Shown one piece after another: positions 464 to 17,779 of a stretch of 34,029 nt of DNA. The first letter of the stretch is position 1, and each line of letters begins with the position of its first letter. Both the position numbers and the translations under genes were made by a program. The DNA comes from Devosia equisanguinis (GTDB lineage: Bacteria > Pseudomonadota > Alphaproteobacteria > Rhizobiales > Hyphomicrobiaceae): positions 1-34,029 of the forward strand of contig CAMDPA010000002.1 in assembly GCA_945903565.1 (NCBI GenBank), read 5' to 3'. The notes under the pieces were generated by a model, which saw only the letters and a list, made by a program, of their open reading frames with translations, was not told the DNA's origin and did not search any database.

Positions 464-492
464 GGCGGCGCGGCTTATGGCGGCGCGGCTTA
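464..492. repeat. 14-bp tandem direct repeat at the lpd 3' end
   Basis: GGCGGCGCGGCTTA occurs at 464-477 and again at 479-492. The second copy includes the lpd stop codon (minus strand, 490-492). A direct repeat ending in a conserved gene's stop codon, next to an integrase, resembles an attachment-core remnant. It could equally be slippage in GC-rich sequence. Confidence 0.35.
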
Positions 493-1890
493 CATATGGA
501 TTGGCCGCTTGGCGACCGCCAGCGCGGCTTCCTTGACCGCTTCGGTCAGCGTCGGATGAGCGTGGCAGGTGCGCGCCAGGTCTTCGGCCGAGCCGCCGAA
601 CTCCATGACGACTGCGGCTTCGGCAATAAGTTCGCCGACGTGCGGGCCGATCATGTGGACGCCGAGGATGCGGTCGGTCGTGGCGTCCGCCAGCACCTTC
701 ACGAAACCGTCGGTGGTCTTGTTGACCTTGGCGCGGCCATTGGCGGTGAACGGAAACTTGCCGGCGTTGTAGGCGATGCCGGCGGCCTTCAGCTCCTCCT
801 CGGTCTTCCCGACGGTGGCGACTTCGGGGGCGGTGTAGATGACGCCGGGGATCACGCCGTAGTTCACGTGACCGGATTGGCCGGCGAGAATTTCGGCGAG
901 CGCGACGCCTTCGTCCTCGGCCTTGTGCGCGAGCATCGGGCCGGCAATGACATCGCCGATCGCGTAGACACCGGGAACGCTGGTGGCGAAGTGCGCGTCA
1001 ACCTTCACGCGGCGGCGCTCGTCCAGTGCGACGCCGGCTTCGGCGAGGCCGAGGCCTTCGGTGTAGGGCACCCGACCGATGGCGACGAGCACGACGTCGG
1101 CGTCGAGCACGCTGGCCGCCCCACCGGCGGCTGGTTCAACCGTGACCTGGTGACCCTTGGGTGGGCCGCCTTCGACCTTCGTGACTTTGCTCGAGAGCTT
1201 GAACACGAAGCCCTGCTTTTCCAGGATGCGCTGGAACGAGCGGGCAACGTCGAGGTCCATGCCAGGCAGGATGCCGTCGAGGTATTCGACGACCGTAACC
1301 TGAGCGCCAAGCCGCCGCCACACCGAGCCGAGCTCCAGCCCGATCACGCCCGCGCCGACGACCAGCATGCGTTTTGGTACGACGGGCAATGTCAGCGCGC
1401 CGGTCGAGGAGACGATGGTCTTTTCGTCAATGTTGATACCCGGCAGGCGCGCGATATCCGAGCCGGTGGCGATCACGGTCGCCTTGGTGTCGAGCACCTT
1501 CTTCTCGCCGTTGATGAAGGTGACTTCGACCTTCCCCGTGCCGAGCACGCGGCCGGTGCCGTGAAAAGGCTCGATCTTGTTCTTTTTGAGCAGGTAGGCG
1601 ACGCCATCGACGTTACCCTTCACACCCTCGTCCTTGAAGGCCAGCATCTTCGCCAGATTGAGCTTCGGCGCGACTTCGATGCCCATCGCCGCGAAGCCGT
1701 GGCCAGCCTCATCGAAGAGCTCGCTGGCATGCAGCAGTGCTTTCGAGGGGATGCAGCCGACGTTGAGGCACGTGCCGCCATGCGTGGCGCGCTTCTCGAC
1801 GACGGCGACTTTCATACCGAGCTGGGCTGCCCGGATGGCGCACACGTAGCCGCCGGGGCCGGTGCCGATGACGATGAGATCGTAGGACAT
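490..1890 (-). CDS. lpd: Dihydrolipoyl dehydrogenase (E3)
   Basis: This gene encodes the FAD-dependent E3 subunit, which reoxidises dihydrolipoyl groups on the E2 protein and reduces NAD+. Given its neighbours it most likely serves the 2-oxoglutarate dehydrogenase complex in the cytoplasm. The 466 residues match the family's usual length. Visible features are the N-terminal FAD motif GTGPGG (9-14), the redox disulphide CLNVGC (C41, C46), a central GAGVIGLELGS NAD-binding motif, the AIGDV FAD motif, and the C-terminal catalytic pair HAHPTLTE (H445, E450). All key residues are present. It is co-directional with sucA and sucB but separated from sucB by about 1.1 kb holding three small accessory genes, whereas in related genomes lpd usually follows sucB closely. 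The start MSYDLIVIG is typical; the ribosome site before it is weak. Confidence 0.97.
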   Translation of the reverse strand: MSYDLIVIGTGPGGYVCAIRAAQLGMKVAVVEKRATHGGTCLNVGCIPSKALLHASELFDEAGHGFAAMGIEVAPKLNLAKMLAFKDEGVKGNVDGVAYLLKKNKIEPFHGTGRVLGTGKVEVTFINGEKKVLDTKATVIATGSDIARLPGINIDEKTIVSSTGALTLPVVPKRMLVVGAGVIGLELGSVWRRLGAQVTVVEYLDGILPGMDLDVARSFQRILEKQGFVFKLSSKVTKVEGGPPKGHQVTVEPAAGGAASVLDADVVLVAIGRVPYTEGLGLAEAGVALDERRRVKVDAHFATSVPGVYAIGDVIAGPMLAHKAEDEGVALAEILAGQSGHVNYGVIPGVIYTAPEVATVGKTEEELKAAGIAYNAGKFPFTANGRAKVNKTTDGFVKVLADATTDRILGVHMIGPHVGELIAEAAVVMEFGGSAEDLARTCHAHPTLTEAVKEAALAVAKRPIHM

Positions 1891-1942
1891 GGGACTCTTG
1901 GTTTGTGGAGTTGGAGGAGAACTTGGGACCGCCGCGGCGAGG

Positions 1943-2233
1943 TCATACCATCATCAGCTTGTGGATTTCTGCTTGCCGTTCACAATCGCGGCGCAGACCA
2001 TCCGCGCTCAAGTCGATTTCGTAGCCATCCTTGTTGAACCAGGAAATGGAGTGGCCGTATTCTTCTATTTGGAACGCGGCGAAGTTCACCGGCTTCTGGA
2101 GCCACATGAAGATCTTGCCTTTGGCGATCAGCGGCCGCAAATCGACGACACCCTCATATCCGTCGAGGAAAGCGATCTTCAGAACGCCGTGGATGACGAC
2201 CTCGGCGCTCTTAATCCGGGGAAGCTTCTTCAT
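1943..2233 (-). CDS. DUF2442 family protein
   Basis: This small protein of 96 residues begins MKKLPRIKSAEV and has the DUF2442 pattern: a beta-rich segment with a central DGYEGVVDLRPLI, a middle F(A/Q)xF and W region, and a DLSADGLRR end. Its function is not established. Its ATG overlaps the stop of the upstream DUF4160 gene by 4 bp (2230-2233), so the two are almost certainly translated as a coupled pair. From memory, DUF4160 and DUF2442 genes recur side by side in many bacteria and have been suspected of being toxin-antitoxin-like; that is not proven. It sits as an insertion between sucB and lpd on the same strand, so it may be read from the suc promoter. Confidence 0.8.
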   Translation of the reverse strand: MKKLPRIKSAEVVIHGVLKIAFLDGYEGVVDLRPLIAKGKIFMWLQKPVNFAAFQIEEYGHSISWFNKDGYEIDLSADGLRRDCERQAEIHKLMMV

Positions 2234-2481
2234 TCTATCGGCTCCACGGGCTCCAGCGAAATGGCCTGCTCGAAGGCGCGGCGCAGCTCAGCTTGTCTAC
2301 TTTTCGCCCATTTAACTACTTTTCGCTTCTTGGCCAAAGGTATGGAGCCTGCTGTGACCTTCAGCGTCTCGATGTCCATCACGGCTTGATGCTCGGCAAT
2401 GCGAAGATGGATGTGGGGCGGTGGGTGCTCGTTGGCATAGACTTGGATTTTGACGCCTTCTACTGTAGCAACCGTCGGCAT
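2230..2481 (-). CDS. DUF4160 family protein
   Basis: This gene encodes 83 residues starting MPTVATVEGVKI. It carries the DUF4160 hallmark EHPPPHIHLR (around residues 17-26), followed by a basic helix KKRKVVKW. An ATG start at 2481 gives the canonical MPTV beginning; a GTG lies one codon upstream. An AGGG stretch about ten bases before the ATG may be the ribosome site. Its biochemical role is unknown; the histidine-rich PPHIH motif could bind metal or nucleic acid. The stop overlaps the DUF2442 start (ATGA), which suggests a two-gene unit. The pair is not related in function to the surrounding TCA genes and is probably accessory cargo. Confidence 0.8.
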   Translation of the reverse strand: MPTVATVEGVKIQVYANEHPPPHIHLRIAEHQAVMDIETLKVTAGSIPLAKKRKVVKWAKSRQAELRRAFEQAISLEPVEPIE

Positions 2482-2575
2482 CACTCAATATCCCTGATCG
2501 GTCACACGGAAGGCGCATATGTACTCGTCGGGGCCGATGAAGATGACGATGAAACAGTAGGATGTTAGGCTCGCG

Positions 2576-2977
2576 CTAGTCCTGCTGGTCTGCGGGCCAT
2601 TGGGCCGGATCATCGACTGGCTGGGGCAAGCGCCCGGCAAGCCACTCAGCAGCCTGGTCTGGCGTGAAGCTTGGATCACGGCTTTCAATGACCCAACACA
2701 GAAACTCGGGTCCCCCATTCAAGTACGGCGGCGGAGACACGGGCATGAACAAGGCCGGAAGCCGCTCGTCCGGCGACAAGTAGTTCAAGACATGGCCAAG
2801 CTCCTGCACCGTGTTCCATGCCAACGGATGTTTGATGTCGATTGAAAGCTTGACCCACCAGTTGTCGTTTTCAAAGCGCCCGCTGCCAAAGGCCAAGCCA
2901 GCGGAGCTGATGGCAGGAACGCGGGCCAGAAACGCGAGCAACACTGCAAAGTGAGGAGCATGTCCCTGCCCGTTCAT
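2576..2977 (-). CDS. Uncharacterised 133-aa protein
   Basis: I do not recognise a family. The ATG at 2977 is chosen because GAGGGG lies seven bases upstream; the frame is open for 17 more codons, but those overlap sucB and look non-coding. The protein starts MNGQGHAPHFAVLL. It has a hydrophobic first third with small residues, a tryptophan pair (NDNWWVKL), a VQELGHVLNYL helix, and a proline-rich middle (PVSPPPYLNGG). It ends with a soluble segment DPSFTPDQAAEWLAGRLP. No clear signal peptide or catalytic motif is seen. It starts 11 bases after the sucB stop on the same strand and so probably lies on the suc transcript. The composition and balanced residue use suggest a real gene, but the function is unknown. 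Confidence 0.6.
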   Translation of the reverse strand: MNGQGHAPHFAVLLAFLARVPAISSAGLAFGSGRFENDNWWVKLSIDIKHPLAWNTVQELGHVLNYLSPDERLPALFMPVSPPPYLNGGPEFLCWVIESRDPSFTPDQAAEWLAGRLPQPVDDPAQWPADQQD

Positions 2978-2988
2978 GCACGTTCCCC

Positions 2989-4221
2989 TCAAAGCTCCAG
3001 CACGAACCTTTGCGGGTCTTCCAGGCACTCCTTGACGCGCACCAGGAACGTCACGGCTTCCTTGCCGTCGACGATGCGGTGGTCGTAACTGAGCGCCAAG
3101 TACATCATCGGCCGGATCACGACCTGGCCGTTGCGGGCCACGGGGCGGTCCTCGATCTTGTGCATGCCGAGGATGCCGGACTGTGGCGCATTCAGGATCG
3201 GCATCGACATCATCGAGCCGTAGACGCCGCCGTTGGAGATCGTGAACGTGCCGCCCTGCATGTCCTCGATGCTGAGCTTGCCATCGCGGGCGCGGCGGCC
3301 GTAGTCGGCGATCGAGCCTTCGATCTCGGCGAGGCCCATGCGGTCGGCCTCGCGCACCACGGGCACCACGAGGCCCTTGTCGGTGCCGACCGCGACGCCG
3401 ATGTGGTAGTAGTTCTTATAGACGATGTCGGTGCCGTCGATCTCGGCGTTGACGGCCGGGATTTCCTTCAGTGCCTGGATGCAAGCGCGCACGAAGAAGC
3501 CCATGAAGCCGAGCTTCACGCCATGCCGCTTCTCGAAGATGTCCTTGTACTGCGTGCGCAGCGCCATCACCGCGCTCATGTCGACGTCGTTGTAGGTCGT
3601 CAGCATCGCCGCGGTGTTCTGCGCCTCTTTCAGGCGGCGCGCGATGGTCTGGCGCAGCCGCGACATCTGCACACGCTCTTCGCGGGCGGCGTCGTTGGCG
3701 GGAGAGGGCGCGCGCATCCGGGCTGCGGGCATCGGAGAGGCTACGGCGGGTACGGCCGGCATCGGCCGGGCGGCAGGCGGTTGCGCGGTCAGCGCGTCGC
3801 CCTTGAGGACCTGGCCACGCTTGCCCGAGCCGTCGACGCTGGCTGCAGCGATGCCCTTTTCGTCGAGGATCTTTCGGGCGGCGGGTGACGGCGGCATTGG
3901 GGCCGCCGTGGTAGCCGGTGCTGGCTGCGGTGCGGCCGGTTTAGGTGGAGCGGAAGCGGGTGCCGCATTAGCAGCGCCGGCTGCGCCTTCGCGCACGGTG
4001 CCGAGTATGCCCCCAGGCGAAACCGTCGCCCCCTGGTCGGCCTTGATGTCGGCAAGCACGCCTGCGGCGGTTGCCAGAACCTCGAGTGTGACCTTGTCCG
4101 TCTCCAGCTCGCACAACGGCTCGTCCATCTTGACGGCATCGCCGGGCTTCTTGAACCAGCGCCCGACCGTTGCCTCGGAGATGCTTTCGCCGAGTGTGGG
4201 AACCTTGATCTCGATGCTCAT
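2989..4221 (-). CDS. sucB: Dihydrolipoyllysine succinyltransferase, E2 of 2-oxoglutarate dehydrogenase
   Basis: This is the E2 core of the 2-oxoglutarate dehydrogenase complex, which transfers the succinyl group from E1 to CoA through a swinging lipoyl arm. The start is [13 protein letters not shown] at 4221; upstream codons in the same frame come from a low-complexity spacer and are rejected. The 410 residues contain one lipoyl domain with the modified lysine in ETDKVTLE (K43), an Ala/Pro-rich linker and the peripheral E3-binding domain (around [12 protein letters not shown]). A second linker leads to the CoA acyltransferase domain ending in [11 protein letters not shown] (catalytic H381, D385). 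All expected parts are present. It follows sucA after 138 bp. That gap holds a long imperfect hairpin that could adjust the E1:E2 ratio. Confidence 0.97.
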
Positions 4222-4234
4222 GACAGTTTCCGGT

Positions 4235-4357
4235 GAAAGGGTGAGTGGCGAGTGGTGCGTTGTGCGTGGTGCGTGGTGCGTGGTGAATGGCGGCAAGGCA
4301 GGTCGGCTCAGATTACCACTCACCATTAACCACTCACCACTCACCATCCACCCTTTG
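4235..4357. repeat. GTGAGTGG-type microrepeat forming an imperfect hairpin between sucA and sucB
   Basis: The top strand from 4235 to 4290 is a run of GTG/GAGTGG/GCGTGGT units. From 4315 to 4357 it is a run of ACCACTCACC units. The outer parts pair well: AAAGGGTGAGTGG near 4236 against CCATCCACCCTTTGG near 4343, and GAGTGGTG against CACCACTC. The whole element fills the spacer between sucA and sucB, so on the minus-strand transcript it would fold into a long stem. A related but shorter element lies between the coxS- and coxL-like genes at 32267-32319. Confidence 0.6.
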
Positions 4358-4359
4358 GT

Positions 4360-7344
<2,985 letters not shown>

Positions 7345-7578
7345 GGGAACCCTTGGAAAGTGGTTGCGATGGGAGCGGACGCGAATACGCGCGCAACGAA
7401 ACGCCTGTTCGAGGCGGTTATTAGCCACGTCCACAGCGCAAGTACAGCCGGATCGACGTTGTATGGCGGGGGGCAGATGAGCGCAGCATGAATAAGCGCT
7501 GCGAGGTCAGCGGAATGAACAGAATCATCGCAGGATCGGGTGCGGAATGCCCGGAATTACGGCATGTCCCGCTTAGTC

Positions 7579-10537: not shown

Positions 10538-10701
10538 CGTCATCCTCGACCGAAGTAAGCCGAAGGCGAACGAGCGTCGGGGACCCAGCACAAGACTCGT
10601 GCGAAGCACGCACTATTGTATTGACGCCTTCGGCGACTTCTTGTGCTGGGTCCCCGACGCGGCTGCGCGCGTGAAGCGGCGCTCGCCGGTCGAGGATGAC
10701 G
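10538..10701. repeat. 164-bp palindromic element with perfect 15-bp terminal inverted repeats (copy A)
   Basis: The ends CGTCATCCTCGACCG (10538-10552) and its exact reverse complement (10687-10701) frame the element. A perfect 22-bp inner stem pairs 10574-10595 (GCGTCGGGGACCCAGCACAA...) with 10639-10660. A small hairpin CGTGC-GAA-GCACG sits at 10598-10610. The whole can fold as one long rod or cruciform. It has no coding content. It fills much of the 463-bp gap between the Bug protein gene and ada; the rest of that gap shows nothing recognisable. A diverged second copy lies at 17509-17640, so this is a dispersed, possibly MITE- or REP-like family. Confidence 0.8.
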
Positions 10702-12564: not shown

Positions 12565-13113
12565 TTAGGGCGCATTTGCGGCGCCCTGACGACTCGGGAC
12601 GAACGAGTCGTACAACAGCCCGATCACGCCCGCAACGATTGCCACGTCGGCAATATTGAATACGTACCAGGAATAGTTAAAGGCGTGAAGGAGGTAGAAG
12701 TCGGCCACACCGCCTAGCCAGAGCCGGTCGATCGCGTTGCCGATCGCGCCGCCCACGATCATGCCGACGCTGATGGCCATCAGTTGGCCGGTCCCCGCAC
12801 GTGCGATCCACACCAGCATGGCAAGTGATGCGACGAGGGCGAACAATGAAAGTGCAAACTGCGGCACGGCCTCGCTTCCGATATTGTAGCTAACGCCTTT
12901 GTTGATCACGTAGACGAGGTCGAGGAACGGCGTCACAGTTACCGGACCGTGTTCCCGGACGCGGTCCTCGATACGGAATGACTTGATCATCCAAATCTTG
13001 TTGGACTGGTCGGCAGCCAATGCGACGAGTGCGGTCGACAGGCAGAGCCGCGACAATGGCCCCCACAGCCAGCCACAGATGCCAGAACCGCTCGATTTTC
13101 CGATCTCGTCCAT
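12565..13113 (-). CDS. lspA: Lipoprotein signal peptidase (signal peptidase II)
   Basis: LspA is an inner-membrane aspartyl protease that cuts the signal peptide from prolipoproteins after the lipobox cysteine has been diacylated. The start at 13113 (MDEIGKSSGSG) is preferred because AGGA lies about six bases upstream; earlier GTG and ATG codons are in frame. The 182 residues show four hydrophobic segments (about 23-40, 85-104, 110-127, 148-168). Also visible are the substrate loop NKGVSYNIGS, and the two catalytic aspartates in GNAIDR (D129) and FNIADVAI (D156). It is complete. The next gene encodes a lipoprotein, a likely substrate. It is divergent from the FHA gene, with about 120 bp between starts. 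Confidence 0.95.
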   Translation of the reverse strand: MDEIGKSSGSGICGWLWGPLSRLCLSTALVALAADQSNKIWMIKSFRIEDRVREHGPVTVTPFLDLVYVINKGVSYNIGSEAVPQFALSLFALVASLAMLVWIARAGTGQLMAISVGMIVGGAIGNAIDRLWLGGVADFYLLHAFNYSWYVFNIADVAIVAGVIGLLYDSFVPSRQGAANAP

Positions 13114-13163
13114 GGCTGTCCTGTCAATCATTCGATGACTCACGTCAAGAGCGCCGCCCGCTT

Positions 13164-13233: not shown

Positions 13234-13857
13234 ATGTCAGCGACCGCAAAGGCCATCGTGCTTCTGGCCGCCGTGACAGCATTGCTGCTCGCGGAACCGC
13301 CGGTTGCGCTGGCCCAGGCAACAGAACTGGGCAGGCCGGCCAATTGGGCCGAGACGCTGGATGCCGGCCTGGCGATGGTCGGTCGGGTGACCTCGAATGT
13401 AACGACGTGGGTGGTCACGGGATACGCGCGCCGCCCGCTCGTCATGATCGGCCTTGGTGGCGTGCTTCTAATACCTCCGTTGGCGATTGCGGGGCTGTTG
13501 CTCTACCGCCGCCGCCCACGGGAGCGTGAAGCGCCAGCCGATGCGGCACTCGCCATCGCGTCCGTGGCCTGGATCGAAGTCGATGGCAAAGGGATGATCG
13601 CGATGCCGTCGGGCCGGGACATCATGCAGATCGGGCGCGAACAGGACAACGATATCTGCCTGGATGACGACAGGGTACATCGCTACCACGCCATCATCGA
13701 GCGCGCGCATGGCCGGGGCTATACAATTACCGACATCGGCGGCCCCGACGGCAACGGCCTCTGCATCAATGGTGCACGCCTGGAGTCGGGCATGCTCGCC
13801 GACGGCGATACGATCGAGCTGGGGAGCTCGAAACTGAGATTTGCGACCGCGGCGTAG
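13234..13857 (+). CDS. Membrane-anchored FHA-domain protein
   Basis: FHA domains bind phosphothreonine peptides. The ATG at 13234 is chosen because it opens a clear signal sequence (MSATAKAIVLLAAV to ALAQA, about 1-29); a longer in-frame start would place polar residues before it. A second hydrophobic segment (about 69-91, LVMIGLGGVLLIPP) is followed by YRRRPRER, so the C-terminal FHA domain (about 112-205) probably faces the cytoplasm. FHA signatures are MQIGREQDNDI (GR at 134-135), RVHRYHA (H152), TDIGGPDGNGLCING and GDTIELG. The 207-residue protein heads a co-directional FHA-FHA-PP2C set. No Ser/Thr kinase gene is in the window. Confidence 0.88.
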   Translation: MSATAKAIVLLAAVTALLLAEPPVALAQATELGRPANWAETLDAGLAMVGRVTSNVTTWVVTGYARRPLVMIGLGGVLLIPPLAIAGLLLYRRRPREREAPADAALAIASVAWIEVDGKGMIAMPSGRDIMQIGREQDNDICLDDDRVHRYHAIIERAHGRGYTITDIGGPDGNGLCINGARLESGMLADGDTIELGSSKLRFATAA

Positions 13858-13910
13858 CGGTTTGAAGTGGCGTGATCGGGAAGGCCCAACTGGGAGAGGG
13901 AGACACATAG

Positions 13911-14663
13911 ATGAGCATCGATAACGACCGCGGCGGTCCCGCGCGGATGGCCCAAGGAATTCTGGGCTCACTCCGGGAAGCGCTCGCGGCCGCCAGCCGC
14001 GACGAGACGGCGCGTGCACCAGCCGAGGCCGTGGCGCGGCCGGCTACTGTCCCTCCAGCATTACCCGTCAGCGAGAGTAGAGAGGATCAAGCCGTGATGA
14101 TGCGACCAGCAGCTCCCAGCGCCGCCGATGCCGCCCGCGAAGCGCGCGGTGGAACGCCCAACATTCCGCCCGCCGATGCCCCGCCAACCACACGCGTGAT
14201 CCGTGCGGCAAAACCCGCTGGTCCGGCTGACGGCGATGCGACCGCGCGCACCCGGTTCGTGCGTGGCAAGCAGCCGATCGCGCGGCAGAGTTTTCATCAG
14301 GATCCCGTGGTCGGCTGGCTTGTGATCGTCGGCGGCCCGGGCCTTGGTGCGCACAAACCGATCTACGAGGGTAACAACACGGTCGGTCGCGGCCCGAGCC
14401 AGCGCATCGCGATCGACTTCGGCGACGATGCGATCTCGACCGAGGAGCAGGCCTATATCCGCTACGAGGGCGCCGACCGCAGCTTCCTGTTCGTACCGAA
14501 CCTCGCCAAGACCAACGTCGTCGCGGTCAACGACAAGCGGCCGACGTCAGCCGTGACTTTGAACGCGATGGATGTCATCACGATGGGCCGCACGCAGCTC
14601 GTGTTCGTGCCGTTCTGCGGGCCGGAATTCGACTGGGCCGACATCAGCGAAACCAAGGGTTGA
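13911..14663 (+). CDS. Cytoplasmic FHA-domain protein with disordered N-terminal tail
   Basis: This protein of 250 residues starts MSIDNDRGGPARMAQG after a purine-rich GGGAGAGGGAG ribosome site. Residues about 31-125 are Ala/Pro/Arg-rich and look disordered. Within them are two similar motifs, TTRVIRA (about 93-99) and RTRFVRG (113-119), resembling the T-R-hydrophobic-x-R phosphorylation sites placed ahead of FHA domains in other proteins. The FHA domain spans about 133-235 (NNTVGRGPSQ with GR at 159-160, then AISTEEQAYIRY and VITMGRTQLVF). It probably binds phosphothreonine, possibly its own tail. Its stop codon overlaps the start of the PP2C gene by one base (TGATG), indicating translational coupling to the phosphatase. 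Confidence 0.88.
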   Translation: MSIDNDRGGPARMAQGILGSLREALAAASRDETARAPAEAVARPATVPPALPVSESREDQAVMMRPAAPSAADAAREARGGTPNIPPADAPPTTRVIRAAKPAGPADGDATARTRFVRGKQPIARQSFHQDPVVGWLVIVGGPGLGAHKPIYEGNNTVGRGPSQRIAIDFGDDAISTEEQAYIRYEGADRSFLFVPNLAKTNVVAVNDKRPTSAVTLNAMDVITMGRTQLVFVPFCGPEFDWADISETKG

Positions 14664-15451
14664 TGCTTACCTATCTTGCCGCCATCGCCGCCAGCCAAGG
14701 CGCGCGCCAACAACAGGAGGATGCCGCCGCGCTCTGGCCGGGCCCGGCGACGTCTCCGCCTGCGTTCGACCAGCCGCCGGAGGAAGGCCGTCTGGTCGCC
14801 ATCCTGGCCGACGGCATGGGTGGCCACGCGGGTGGCGCCTTGGCGAGCCGCATCGTCTGCGCGCACTTTTTCGAGGCCTTCGCGGGGGCGCCCTTTTCCG
14901 TGCGAGAGCGGCTCGAAACGGGTCTATGGGCCTGTAACGATGCGATCGCGCAGCAGGTTTCCGGAAATCGTGCGCTCGACGGCATGGGGGCAACGCTTGT
15001 CGGGGCGGCGTTCGGTCCCGATGGCTTGGAGTGGGTGAGCGTCGGCGATAGCCCGCTCTATCTGTGGCGGGACGGTGAGATCGCGCTCGTCAACGAGGAT
15101 CACTCGCTGGCGCCGCTGCTCGACGAGCTGGCGCGGGCCGGCAAGATTTCAGAGAACGAGGCACAGACCGATTCGCGCCGCAATATGCTGCGTTCGGCGG
15201 TCACGGGGGAGGATATCGAGCTGGTCGATCTCGCGGCAAAGCCGCTGGCGCTGTTGCCCGGCGATTGCGTGATCCTGGCCAGCGACGGCATTCATACGAT
15301 CGACGAGACCGAAATCTCACGGATCGTCGCGGCCTATCTGGCCGACGGCCCGCAAGCTGTCGCCTCGGCGCTGGTTCGAACGGTCGATAACGTGCGTGAC
15401 CCGCACCAGGACAACGTTACGGTGGTGGTCATCGTCCCGCAGGTCGACTGA
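14663..15451 (+). CDS. PP2C-family (PPM) serine/threonine protein phosphatase
   Basis: This enzyme removes phosphate from Ser/Thr residues of proteins with two metal ions. It is a 262-residue cytoplasmic catalytic domain with no extra modules. Family motifs are present in order: GARQQQEDA (R15, E19, D20), LADGMGGHAGG (D50, G51), DGMGATLVG (D108), VSVGDSPLYL (D129), ILASDGIH (D208), and HQDNVTVVV (D250, N251). All metal-binding aspartates are there, so it should be active. The ATG overlaps the preceding FHA stop; a TTG one codon upstream is ignored. The partner kinase is not nearby. The likely substrates are the phosphothreonine sites read by the two FHA proteins. Confidence 0.95.
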   Translation: MLTYLAAIAASQGARQQQEDAAALWPGPATSPPAFDQPPEEGRLVAILADGMGGHAGGALASRIVCAHFFEAFAGAPFSVRERLETGLWACNDAIAQQVSGNRALDGMGATLVGAAFGPDGLEWVSVGDSPLYLWRDGEIALVNEDHSLAPLLDELARAGKISENEAQTDSRRNMLRSAVTGEDIELVDLAAKPLALLPGDCVILASDGIHTIDETEISRIVAAYLADGPQAVASALVRTVDNVRDPHQDNVTVVVIVPQVD

Positions 15452-15891: not shown

Positions 15892-16538
15892 AGATCTTCA
15901 CCTACTGGCGTTCGCTCGCGACGTTCCGTGTGCGCATGGCGCTGAACCTCAAGAACCTCAAGGCCGAGGAAATCGAGGTCGATCTTTCCGCCGGCCATCA
16001 GATGAAGCCGGAGTTTGCCGCCATCAATCCGATGAAGGCGATTCCTGTGTTCATCGACGACGACGGCACGACGCTGCATCAGTCGTTGCCGATCATGGAA
16101 TACCTCGACGAGCGCTATCCCGATCCGGCCCTGATGCCGCGCGATCCCGCCGGCCGCGCGCGGGTACGGGCGCTGGCACAGATGACGGTGGCGGACAGCC
16201 ATCCGCTGGTGGTGCCGCGCGTGCGCGCTGATCTCGCCAGCCGCTTTGGCGCGACGCCCGAGCAGGTGACGCGCTGGGCGCAGACGTGGCTGATCGCGGG
16301 CCTCGATGCCTACGAGACCACACTGAAGCGCGACAAGGAAACCGGCGACTTCTGTCACGGCAACGCCATCACGATCGCAGACATCTGCCTGGTCAGTCAC
16401 GCCGCCGGCACGCGCTTTTTCGAAGGCACGATCGACGGACATCCCACGGTCAAGCGCATCGTCGAGCGCTGCCTTGCTGACGAGCGTATCGCGCGTGCGC
16501 ATCCCTTGCGTCAGCCCGGTGCGCCCAAATCGGTGTGA
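15888..16538 (+). CDS. maiA: Maleylacetoacetate isomerase-like zeta-class glutathione transferase
   Basis: MaiA uses glutathione to isomerise maleylacetoacetate to fumarylacetoacetate in tyrosine/homogentisate breakdown; close relatives act on maleylpyruvate. The 216 residues start MKIFTYWRSLATFRVRMALN. The N-terminal thioredoxin-like domain has KAIPVFIDDDGTTLHQSLPIMEYLDE with the cis-proline and the Gln-Ser glutathione contact. The C-terminal helical domain has NAITIADICLVSHA. The zeta-class catalytic motif SSCSWR is here SLATFR (S9 onward), so only the first serine is kept; the exact substrate is therefore less sure. The last 58 bp of the gene recur at 17722-17779. No homogentisate dioxygenase or fumarylacetoacetase gene is adjacent. 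Confidence 0.85.
   Translation: MKIFTYWRSLATFRVRMALNLKNLKAEEIEVDLSAGHQMKPEFAAINPMKAIPVFIDDDGTTLHQSLPIMEYLDERYPDPALMPRDPAGRARVRALAQMTVADSHPLVVPRVRADLASRFGATPEQVTRWAQTWLIAGLDAYETTLKRDKETGDFCHGNAITIADICLVSHAAGTRFFEGTIDGHPTVKRIVERCLADERIARAHPLRQPGAPKSV
16481..16538 (+). repeat. Upstream copy of the 58-bp maiA-end duplication
   Basis: The last 58 bp of maiA match 17722-17779 with about six differences, most of them at third codon positions. Between the two copies lie the MNT/HEPN pair and the truncated palindromic repeat. Sequence outside the copies does not match. The layout is that of an element integrated at a gene's 3' end. Confidence 0.8.
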
Positions 16539-16824: not shown

Positions 16825-17139
16825 ATGAAGGAGCAAAGCCTAATCATGGGCCGCGAGGACATCATTGCGCGCATACGGGAGCGAGCCGAGGCCGTCAGAG
16901 CCTTGGGCGCGACGGCGCTTTACATTTACGGTGCGCGAGTGCGCGGTGATGAGAGGGCCGACAGCGACCTCGACGTGTTTGTGGACTTCGATCCTACAAA
17001 GTTCGGGTTCGTCGAACTTGTCGAACTCGAGGACATGCTGTCCCGCGAGCTTGGCCTAAAGGTTCAGCTCGGTACCCAAGATGCACTGCACCCGCTGATG
17101 AAACCGGCCATCGAGCGCGATGCCGTGCGGGTATTGTAG
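16825..17139 (+). CDS. MNT-domain nucleotidyltransferase (MntA-type antitoxin)
   Basis: Minimal nucleotidyltransferases paired with HEPN proteins act as antitoxins; in studied cases they AMPylate the HEPN toxin. The 104-residue frame begins MKEQSLIMGREDIIARI; the second ATG (16846), preceded by AAGGAG, may be the true start, because family members usually begin there. The core is YIYGARVRGDERADSDLDVFVDF: metal-binding D48, D50 and D54 are present. However, the usual Gly-Ser of the motif is Gly-Ala (G36-A37), which may weaken catalysis. The C terminus has QLGTQDALHPLMKPAIERDAV, typical of this family. The HEPN gene follows after 8 bp. The pair lies between two copies of the maiA end. Confidence 0.88.
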   Translation: MKEQSLIMGREDIIARIRERAEAVRALGATALYIYGARVRGDERADSDLDVFVDFDPTKFGFVELVELEDMLSRELGLKVQLGTQDALHPLMKPAIERDAVRVL

Positions 17140-17147
17140 AGCCTCCG

Positions 17148-17486
17148 ATGCAAGACGACCTGATCCCGCTGCCTGACATCCTCAAGGAAATCGATGTCCT
17201 GCATTCGGTCCGGGATCGCACGACCCTCGATGATTTTAAAGCCAGTGCCTCCGATGTGCGCGCCACGTCCTATTCGATTATGGTGATATCAGAGGCCGTG
17301 CGCCGCATTCCGGCGGAATGGCTCGATGAATTTCCGGCGACGCCGTGGCACGCCATCCGAACAATCGGCAACAAGCTTCGCCATGAATATCAGCACATCA
17401 GCGAAATCATCCTTTGGGGCGTCATCGCGACTCATTCAGCCACGCTGAAAACGACCATTGAGGAAATGCTCGTCAGACATAGTTAA
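17148..17486 (+). CDS. HEPN/DUF86 protein (HepT-type toxin)
   Basis: DUF86 HEPN proteins are small all-helical RNases neutralised by their MNT partner. The 112 residues start MQDDLIPLPDILKEIDVL and show the DUF86 pattern, with ATSYSIMVISEAVRRIP in the middle and PWHAIRTIGNKLRHEYQHI at the catalytic end. The canonical Rx4HxY signature is altered. H79 and Y81 are kept, but the arginine position is glycine (G74); R71 and R78 are the nearest arginines. A GNxLRHxY version occurs in a subset of the family as far as I remember, so loss of activity is not certain. It is in an operon with the MNT gene, 8 bp apart. Confidence 0.88.
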   Translation: MQDDLIPLPDILKEIDVLHSVRDRTTLDDFKASASDVRATSYSIMVISEAVRRIPAEWLDEFPATPWHAIRTIGNKLRHEYQHISEIILWGVIATHSATLKTTIEEMLVRHS

Positions 17487-17508: not shown

Positions 17509-17640
17509 CGTCATCTTCGACCGAAGTGAGCCGAAGGCGAACGAGCCTCGGAGACCCAGCGCAAGGCTCGCACCAAGCCCGCACTGTGAACATGATTTCC
17601 AGTGCCCTCTGTACGTCTTGCGCTGGGGCCGCGTCGCACA
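17509..17640. repeat. Truncated second copy of the palindromic element (copy B)
   Basis: The left end CGTCATCTTCGACCG (17509-17523) and the following GAAGTGAGCCGAAGGCGAAC match copy A at 10538 with few changes. The inner stem survives as CCCAGCGCAAG (17555-17565) against CTTGCGCTGGG (17617-17627). The right terminal repeat is missing. It lies just after the HEPN stop, inside the segment bracketed by the maiA-end copies. The rest of the 17487-17788 gap holds the duplicated maiA end and nothing else recognisable. Confidence 0.7.
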
Positions 17641-17721: not shown

Positions 17722-17779
17722 CAAGCGCATCGCGCGCGCGCATCCATTGCGTCAGCCCGGTGCGCCCAAATCAGCGTGA
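17722..17779 (+). pseudogene. Duplicated 3' end of maiA (remnant)
   Basis: This stretch encodes RIARAHPLRQPGAPKSA and a stop, the same C-terminal peptide as maiA apart from the last residue. Of the six base changes, four are synonymous third-position changes (CGT/CGC twice, CCC/CCA, TCG/TCA). This suggests the copy diverged as a functional gene end in another lineage rather than decaying in place. It has no start or upstream gene body. The MNT/HEPN pair lies between it and intact maiA. Confidence 0.75.

Follow-up and report, generated by a model that had tools for sequence, protein, structure and literature searches.

The FHA1, FHA2 and PP2C genes of Devosia equisanguinis are three members of a four-gene cassette of the Hyphomicrobiaceae, the fourth member of which encodes a membrane Hanks-type kinase with a C-terminal WD40 propeller (the WD40 kinase). 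The stretch of DNA that we analysed (the window; 34,029 nucleotides) is the entire contig C2 of a MAG of 577 contigs, 94% complete and with 4.6% contamination, in which an IS-like element seems to have interrupted the WD40 kinase gene. An initial annotation of the window had described a kinase-less module; we found that the module is not inherently so, that its writer is a specific kinase–TM–WD40 protein, normally encoded by a divergent neighbour and displaced in the source genus, and that the kinase-less condition is a derived state. Actinobacteria and T6SS loci already offer examples of kinase, FHA and PP2C genes that are linked; what is new is that a PP2C phosphatase and two FHA proteins here accompany a WD40 receptor kinase and, probably, that the source genome has lost the writer, which would make it a naturally occurring instance of such a loss. 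No description of the cassette was found in the open literature that we searched. It represents a compact, T6SS-independent phosphothreonine cassette distributed across the Hyphomicrobiaceae, several of them with cultured representatives, and as writer, likely phosphosites and eraser can all be named, the circuit is directly testable.

The three genes in the window are co-directional on the forward strand: FHA1 (13234–13857), FHA2 (13911–14663) and a gene for a PP2C-family Ser/Thr phosphatase (14663–15451), with the FHA2 stop codon overlapping the PP2C start codon (TGATG, 14661–14665). Open reading frames and, at domain level, Pfam and NCBIfam profiles agreed with the initial annotation on this arrangement, and the conserved co-occurrence that it had proposed looking for was recovered, with the same order repeated in dozens of genomes, far above chance.

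FHA1 scored 54.4 bits against the Pfam FHA profile (PF00498; cut-off 20.7; E-value 1.8e-14), its domain bearing the motifs GR..D.DI.L, VHRYHA and NG. The open reading frame can also be read from 13135; the ATG at 13234 gives a signal-like N-terminal segment, followed by a short loop, a second hydrophobic (transmembrane) segment, the residues RRRPRER and then the FHA domain. These two hydrophobic segments suggest that the domain is membrane-anchored and probably cytoplasmic. Profile searches of PDB chains placed GarA and OdhI as its nearest solved relatives. FHA1 is weakly conserved (31–53% identity), and at 18 of the 80 best loci drawn from 124 relatives, kinase, FHA2 and PP2C genes were present and the search used did not detect FHA1. 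Across the whole source genome, the Pfam FHA profile matched only at the window and reported FHA1 alone, because FHA2 scores barely above the cut-off (21.5 against 20.7 bits; E-value 3.2e-4).

In FHA2, a divergent FHA domain (residues ~135–234) comes after a low-complexity tail in which short motifs are conserved. Its AlphaFold model was of low confidence (mean pLDDT 60.8, pTM 0.41), so the Foldseek search, in which the best PDB matches were FHA domains including those of Rv0020c, GarA, OdhI and DgcB, supports the FHA assignment only; an FHA2 profile gave no match to PDB sequences at E ≤ 0.01. Among the PDB neighbours of FHA1 and FHA2 are OdhI, GarA and DgcB, whose FHA domains were solved together with the phosphorylated tail of the same protein. 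Both proteins retain the canonical Arg and Asn; in FHA1, His replaces the usual phosphate-contacting Ser (VHRYHA) and in FHA2 the Ser/His region is modified (ISsEEQA), so that binding of phosphothreonine is not assured for either domain.

Two candidate phosphorylation sites lie in the FHA2 tail: TTRVIR (residues 93–98, forward strand, 14187–14204), with threonines T93/T94, and TRFVRG (residues 114–119, forward strand, 14250–14267), with T114. An alignment of 25 orthologues showed a long low-complexity tail in which PTTRVxR and RTQLVRG form conserved islands around these threonines, T114 being nearly invariant. Among 81 sequences, 68 could be scored for the motifs; the pattern used to locate the start of the domain failed on the other 13, which were omitted. 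Strict matches to motif 1 numbered 42/68, several others carrying variants such as TTRVFR, while motif 2 matched in 64/68, with the Thr still kept in three of the other four. The tail threonines of the initial annotation were thus present and conserved at both sites. Its description of them as a pair of T-R-x-x-R motifs needs amending for the second, which is T-x-hydrophobic-hydrophobic-R-G across the family (consensus TQLVRG, against TRFVRG in the source sequence) and has Arg at +1 in few sequences.

The phosphatase matched Pfam PP2C_2 (PF13672) at 41.2 bits (cut-off 24) and has the complete set of metal-site motifs, with QEDA, DGMGGH, GDSPLY, ASDG and QDNVT all present. It fell short of the Stp1/IreP equivalog in NCBIfam (Stp1_PP2C_phos, NF033484; 129.4 bits against a cut-off of 230). 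PstP was its closest solved relative, and PppA was also among its solved PP2C relatives. A Pfam search of the source genome revealed one other PP2C domain, fused to a kinase.

In a 40-genome set, FHA2 occurred in 25 genomes including the source: 22 of the 24 from the family and 3 of the 16 from elsewhere in the order. A search at E ≤ 1e-30 of 237 good genomes, drawn evenly from the order, found it in 20. A contig scan yielded 124 relatives; among the best 80 are named isolates of Hyphomicrobium and Filomicrobium, along with many MAGs of the Hyphomicrobiaceae. Kinase searches of the 40-genome set placed a Hanks-type kinase gene immediately beside FHA2 in most module-bearing genomes, reading divergently from FHA1–FHA2–PP2C. 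Its product, of ~780 residues, has a kinase domain (Pkinase, 18–238), a linker, a hydrophobic segment near 430–450, recognised from the sequence, and a WD40 propeller (484–775); the catalytic HRD and DFG are kept in nearly all. Among the best 80 loci, six had too little upstream flank; the kinase gene was divergent and adjacent in 69 of the remaining 74. The genomes of the other five loci, two of them from the source genus, all encode a full-length kinase elsewhere, and six genomes checked (G001, G002, G011, G022 and those of loci L164 and L175) carry a full-length unlinked copy. Within the 40-genome set, 23 of the 25 genomes bearing the module have the WD40 kinase, the other two being the source genome, with a remnant only, and one 70%-complete MAG; both family genomes without FHA2 also had no kinase above the cut-off. 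This co-occurrence of kinase and module, even when unlinked, is the best evidence that the WD40 kinase is the writer.

In the source genus, the divergent slot is occupied by lspA (signal peptidase II; reverse strand, 12565–13143), identified by profile match; its adjacency to FHA1–FHA2–PP2C is genus-specific and it does not belong to the cassette. No conserved neighbours were found outside the cassette among the relatives' loci examined other than, at genus level, lspA and its neighbour. Paralogous kinases on contigs C46 of both G001 and G003 were set aside as non-orthologous, with ~40% identity confined to the kinase domain. Second divergent clusters of kinase, FHA2-like and FHA1-like genes, representing paralogous cassettes, occur in G014 (contig C30, L057/L058) and G017 (contig C38, L059), with one FHA1-like domain of G014 lying inside a 584-residue frame with hydrophobic segments. 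On contig C113 of G024 (L099), a WD40 kinase gene diverges from a PP2C gene and no FHA gene was detected beside them.

On balance, we favour the reading that FHA1–FHA2–PP2C supplies the reading and erasing side of a conserved four-gene switch that is apparently self-contained and would operate through predicted threonine phosphorylation. The cassette, the co-occurrence of its genes, the conserved tail and the kinase remnant are observed; topology, phosphorylation and binding, like the inactivity of the remnant, are predictions. OdhI and GarA each bind their own phosphorylated tail through their own FHA domain (PMC2784874), and the cassette would most likely behave as a similar switch, in which kinase writes on the tail, FHA domains read and PP2C erases. 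The membrane kinase may sense through a WD40 propeller predicted to face outwards and would phosphorylate T93/T94 and T114 of the FHA2 tail; once phosphorylated, the tail could dock onto the FHA domain of FHA2 itself, onto membrane-anchored FHA1, or onto both, and this would alter the partners or location of FHA2; and the PP2C, presumably co-translated, would, to judge by the gene overlap and its motifs, reset the switch. As in GarA and OdhI, candidate tail threonines precede the FHA domain in FHA2, and the FHA1 profile and FHA2 model match structures of both proteins; FHA2 differs in its motifs (TTRVxR, RTQLVRG), its long low-complexity tail and its pairing with a membrane FHA protein.

The actinobacterial fhaA–fhaB–PP2C (pstP/ppp)–pknA–pknB cluster likewise encodes two FHA proteins together with a PP2C and Hanks-type kinases (PMC2784874, PMC3989709), and the cassette resembles it in its FHA pair, its Hanks kinase and the closeness of its phosphatase to PstP. 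However, the cassette belongs to a different phylum, has no cell-wall or division genes and has a divergent, WD40-bearing kinase, and its FHA proteins scored 25.4 and 25.2 bits against the FhaB/FipA (Rv0019c) family (NF049868), well below the cut-off of 125. The union of a Ser/Thr kinase with a C-terminal WD40 domain is shared with PkwA of Thermomonospora curvata, where that domain spans residues 441–742 (PMC6113231); PkwA is actinobacterial, and the accessible part of that source describes no FHA/PP2C cassette for it.

Searching the source genome with the kinase of a sister species revealed no intact orthologue: only residues 548–781, the C-terminal third, matched, on a 3285-base contig (C555), and nothing orthologous turned up in the assembly when the first 480 residues served as query. 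The remnant spans ~147 to 864 of C555 and abuts an IS-like element end (bases 1–146), present at seven other places with 93–100% identity. At this end lies a 40-residue open reading frame that had no Pfam identification and that we take to resemble ISAs1-family transposases. An in-frame TAG (340–342) interrupts the remnant within a short insertion that both sister genes lack; this extra sequence was not found in the other relatives' loci examined. The insertion (300–345) bears an inverted-repeat-like GGTGCC...GGCACC. The remnant retains third-position bias, with dN/dS of 0.21–0.28 against the sister genes (0.16 between the sisters), a pattern that fits, and does not prove, recent inactivation. 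All of this concerns one short contig of a 94%-complete MAG, from which the truncated, stop-carrying remnant is judged inactive.

The writer that the initial annotation had placed elsewhere is indeed intact on another contig in two sister genomes, so that its view is upheld at genus level and unproven for the source genome, where the reader–eraser unit is accompanied only by this remnant and by an unrelated PP2C–kinase fusion on contig C444. With its kinase apparently cut, the switch in this organism may be unphosphorylated, served by the fusion, or decaying. Against the sister genomes, pairwise dN/dS is ~0.12–0.19 for FHA2 and PP2C; as averages over the whole divergence, including the time preceding kinase loss, these ratios do not reveal selection after it. 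We consider it rather unlikely that the circuit recently lost its dedicated receptor kinase to an IS insertion while readers and eraser are still under selection, as a pair either writer-less or run by an unrelated kinase.

A somewhat better, though still unfavoured, prospect is that the ~6% which the MAG lacks includes an intact WD40 kinase gene, C555 being a mis-assembled end or a second, dead copy. The fragmentation and contamination of the assembly would allow this, as would the tendency of multi-copy IS-like ends to break assemblies. Against it, unrelated sequence follows the IS-like end in its other copies, which is what a real IS end should show, the in-frame TAG sits ~190 bases into the remnant, and the N-terminal 547 residues of the kinase left no trace in the assembly.

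Replacement of the writer, with the C444 protein (a bifunctional PP2C–kinase–TM fusion) phosphorylating the FHA2 tail in the source organism, seems improbable. A genome-wide Pkinase search matched on C444 only, which upholds the statement of the initial annotation that the window has no Ser/Thr kinase and makes the fusion the sole intact Hanks kinase found in the genome. The dN/dS of FHA2 and PP2C was also counted for a takeover, an argument weakened by the averaging noted above. However, the C444 kinase has a phosphatase domain of its own and adjoins, as read from translation, an MFS-like transporter frame and a Rieske-like frame, which suggests a different job; it shares 26% identity with the WD40 kinase, across the matched stretch only.

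The operon for 2-oxoglutarate dehydrogenase (sucA, sucB, lpd; 490–7434), 6 kb from the FHA genes, raised the idea of an inhibitor of that enzyme of the OdhI/GarA type, GarA and OdhI being the closest solved FHA relatives. This idea was tested and found unsupported, and we hold it to be very improbable: neither sucA nor sucB lay near the cassette at any other relative's locus examined, and the FHA proteins scored 39.8 and 17.3 bits against the OdhI/GarA family (NF041660), far under the cut-off of 200. Descent from the T6SS threonine phosphorylation pathway, presented in the accessible parts of two reports (PMC3953482, PMC5995506) as a writer, eraser and FHA reader (PpkA–PppA–Fha), is hardly credible and was likewise unsupported when tested: cassette and pathway share this logic, and PppA is a solved relative of the phosphatase, but the writer here is a WD40 kinase of different architecture, the TagH cut-off was not reached, the cassette's surroundings are not conserved beyond lspA and its neighbour at genus level and, in keeping with the initial annotation, a whole-genome search for the VipB/TssC sheath gene found no match.

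Elsewhere in the window, an MNT–HEPN toxin–antitoxin pair (16825–17486) is flanked by direct repeats (56 nt, 91%) of the GST gene's 3′ end (16483–16538 and 17724–17779), which resemble the footprint of an insertion at a gene end. A 77-nt dispersed repeat (87%) occupies two intergenic sites (10538–10614 and 17509–17585); with similar translated text next to the C444 kinase (L001) as well, it could be an element repeated throughout the genome.
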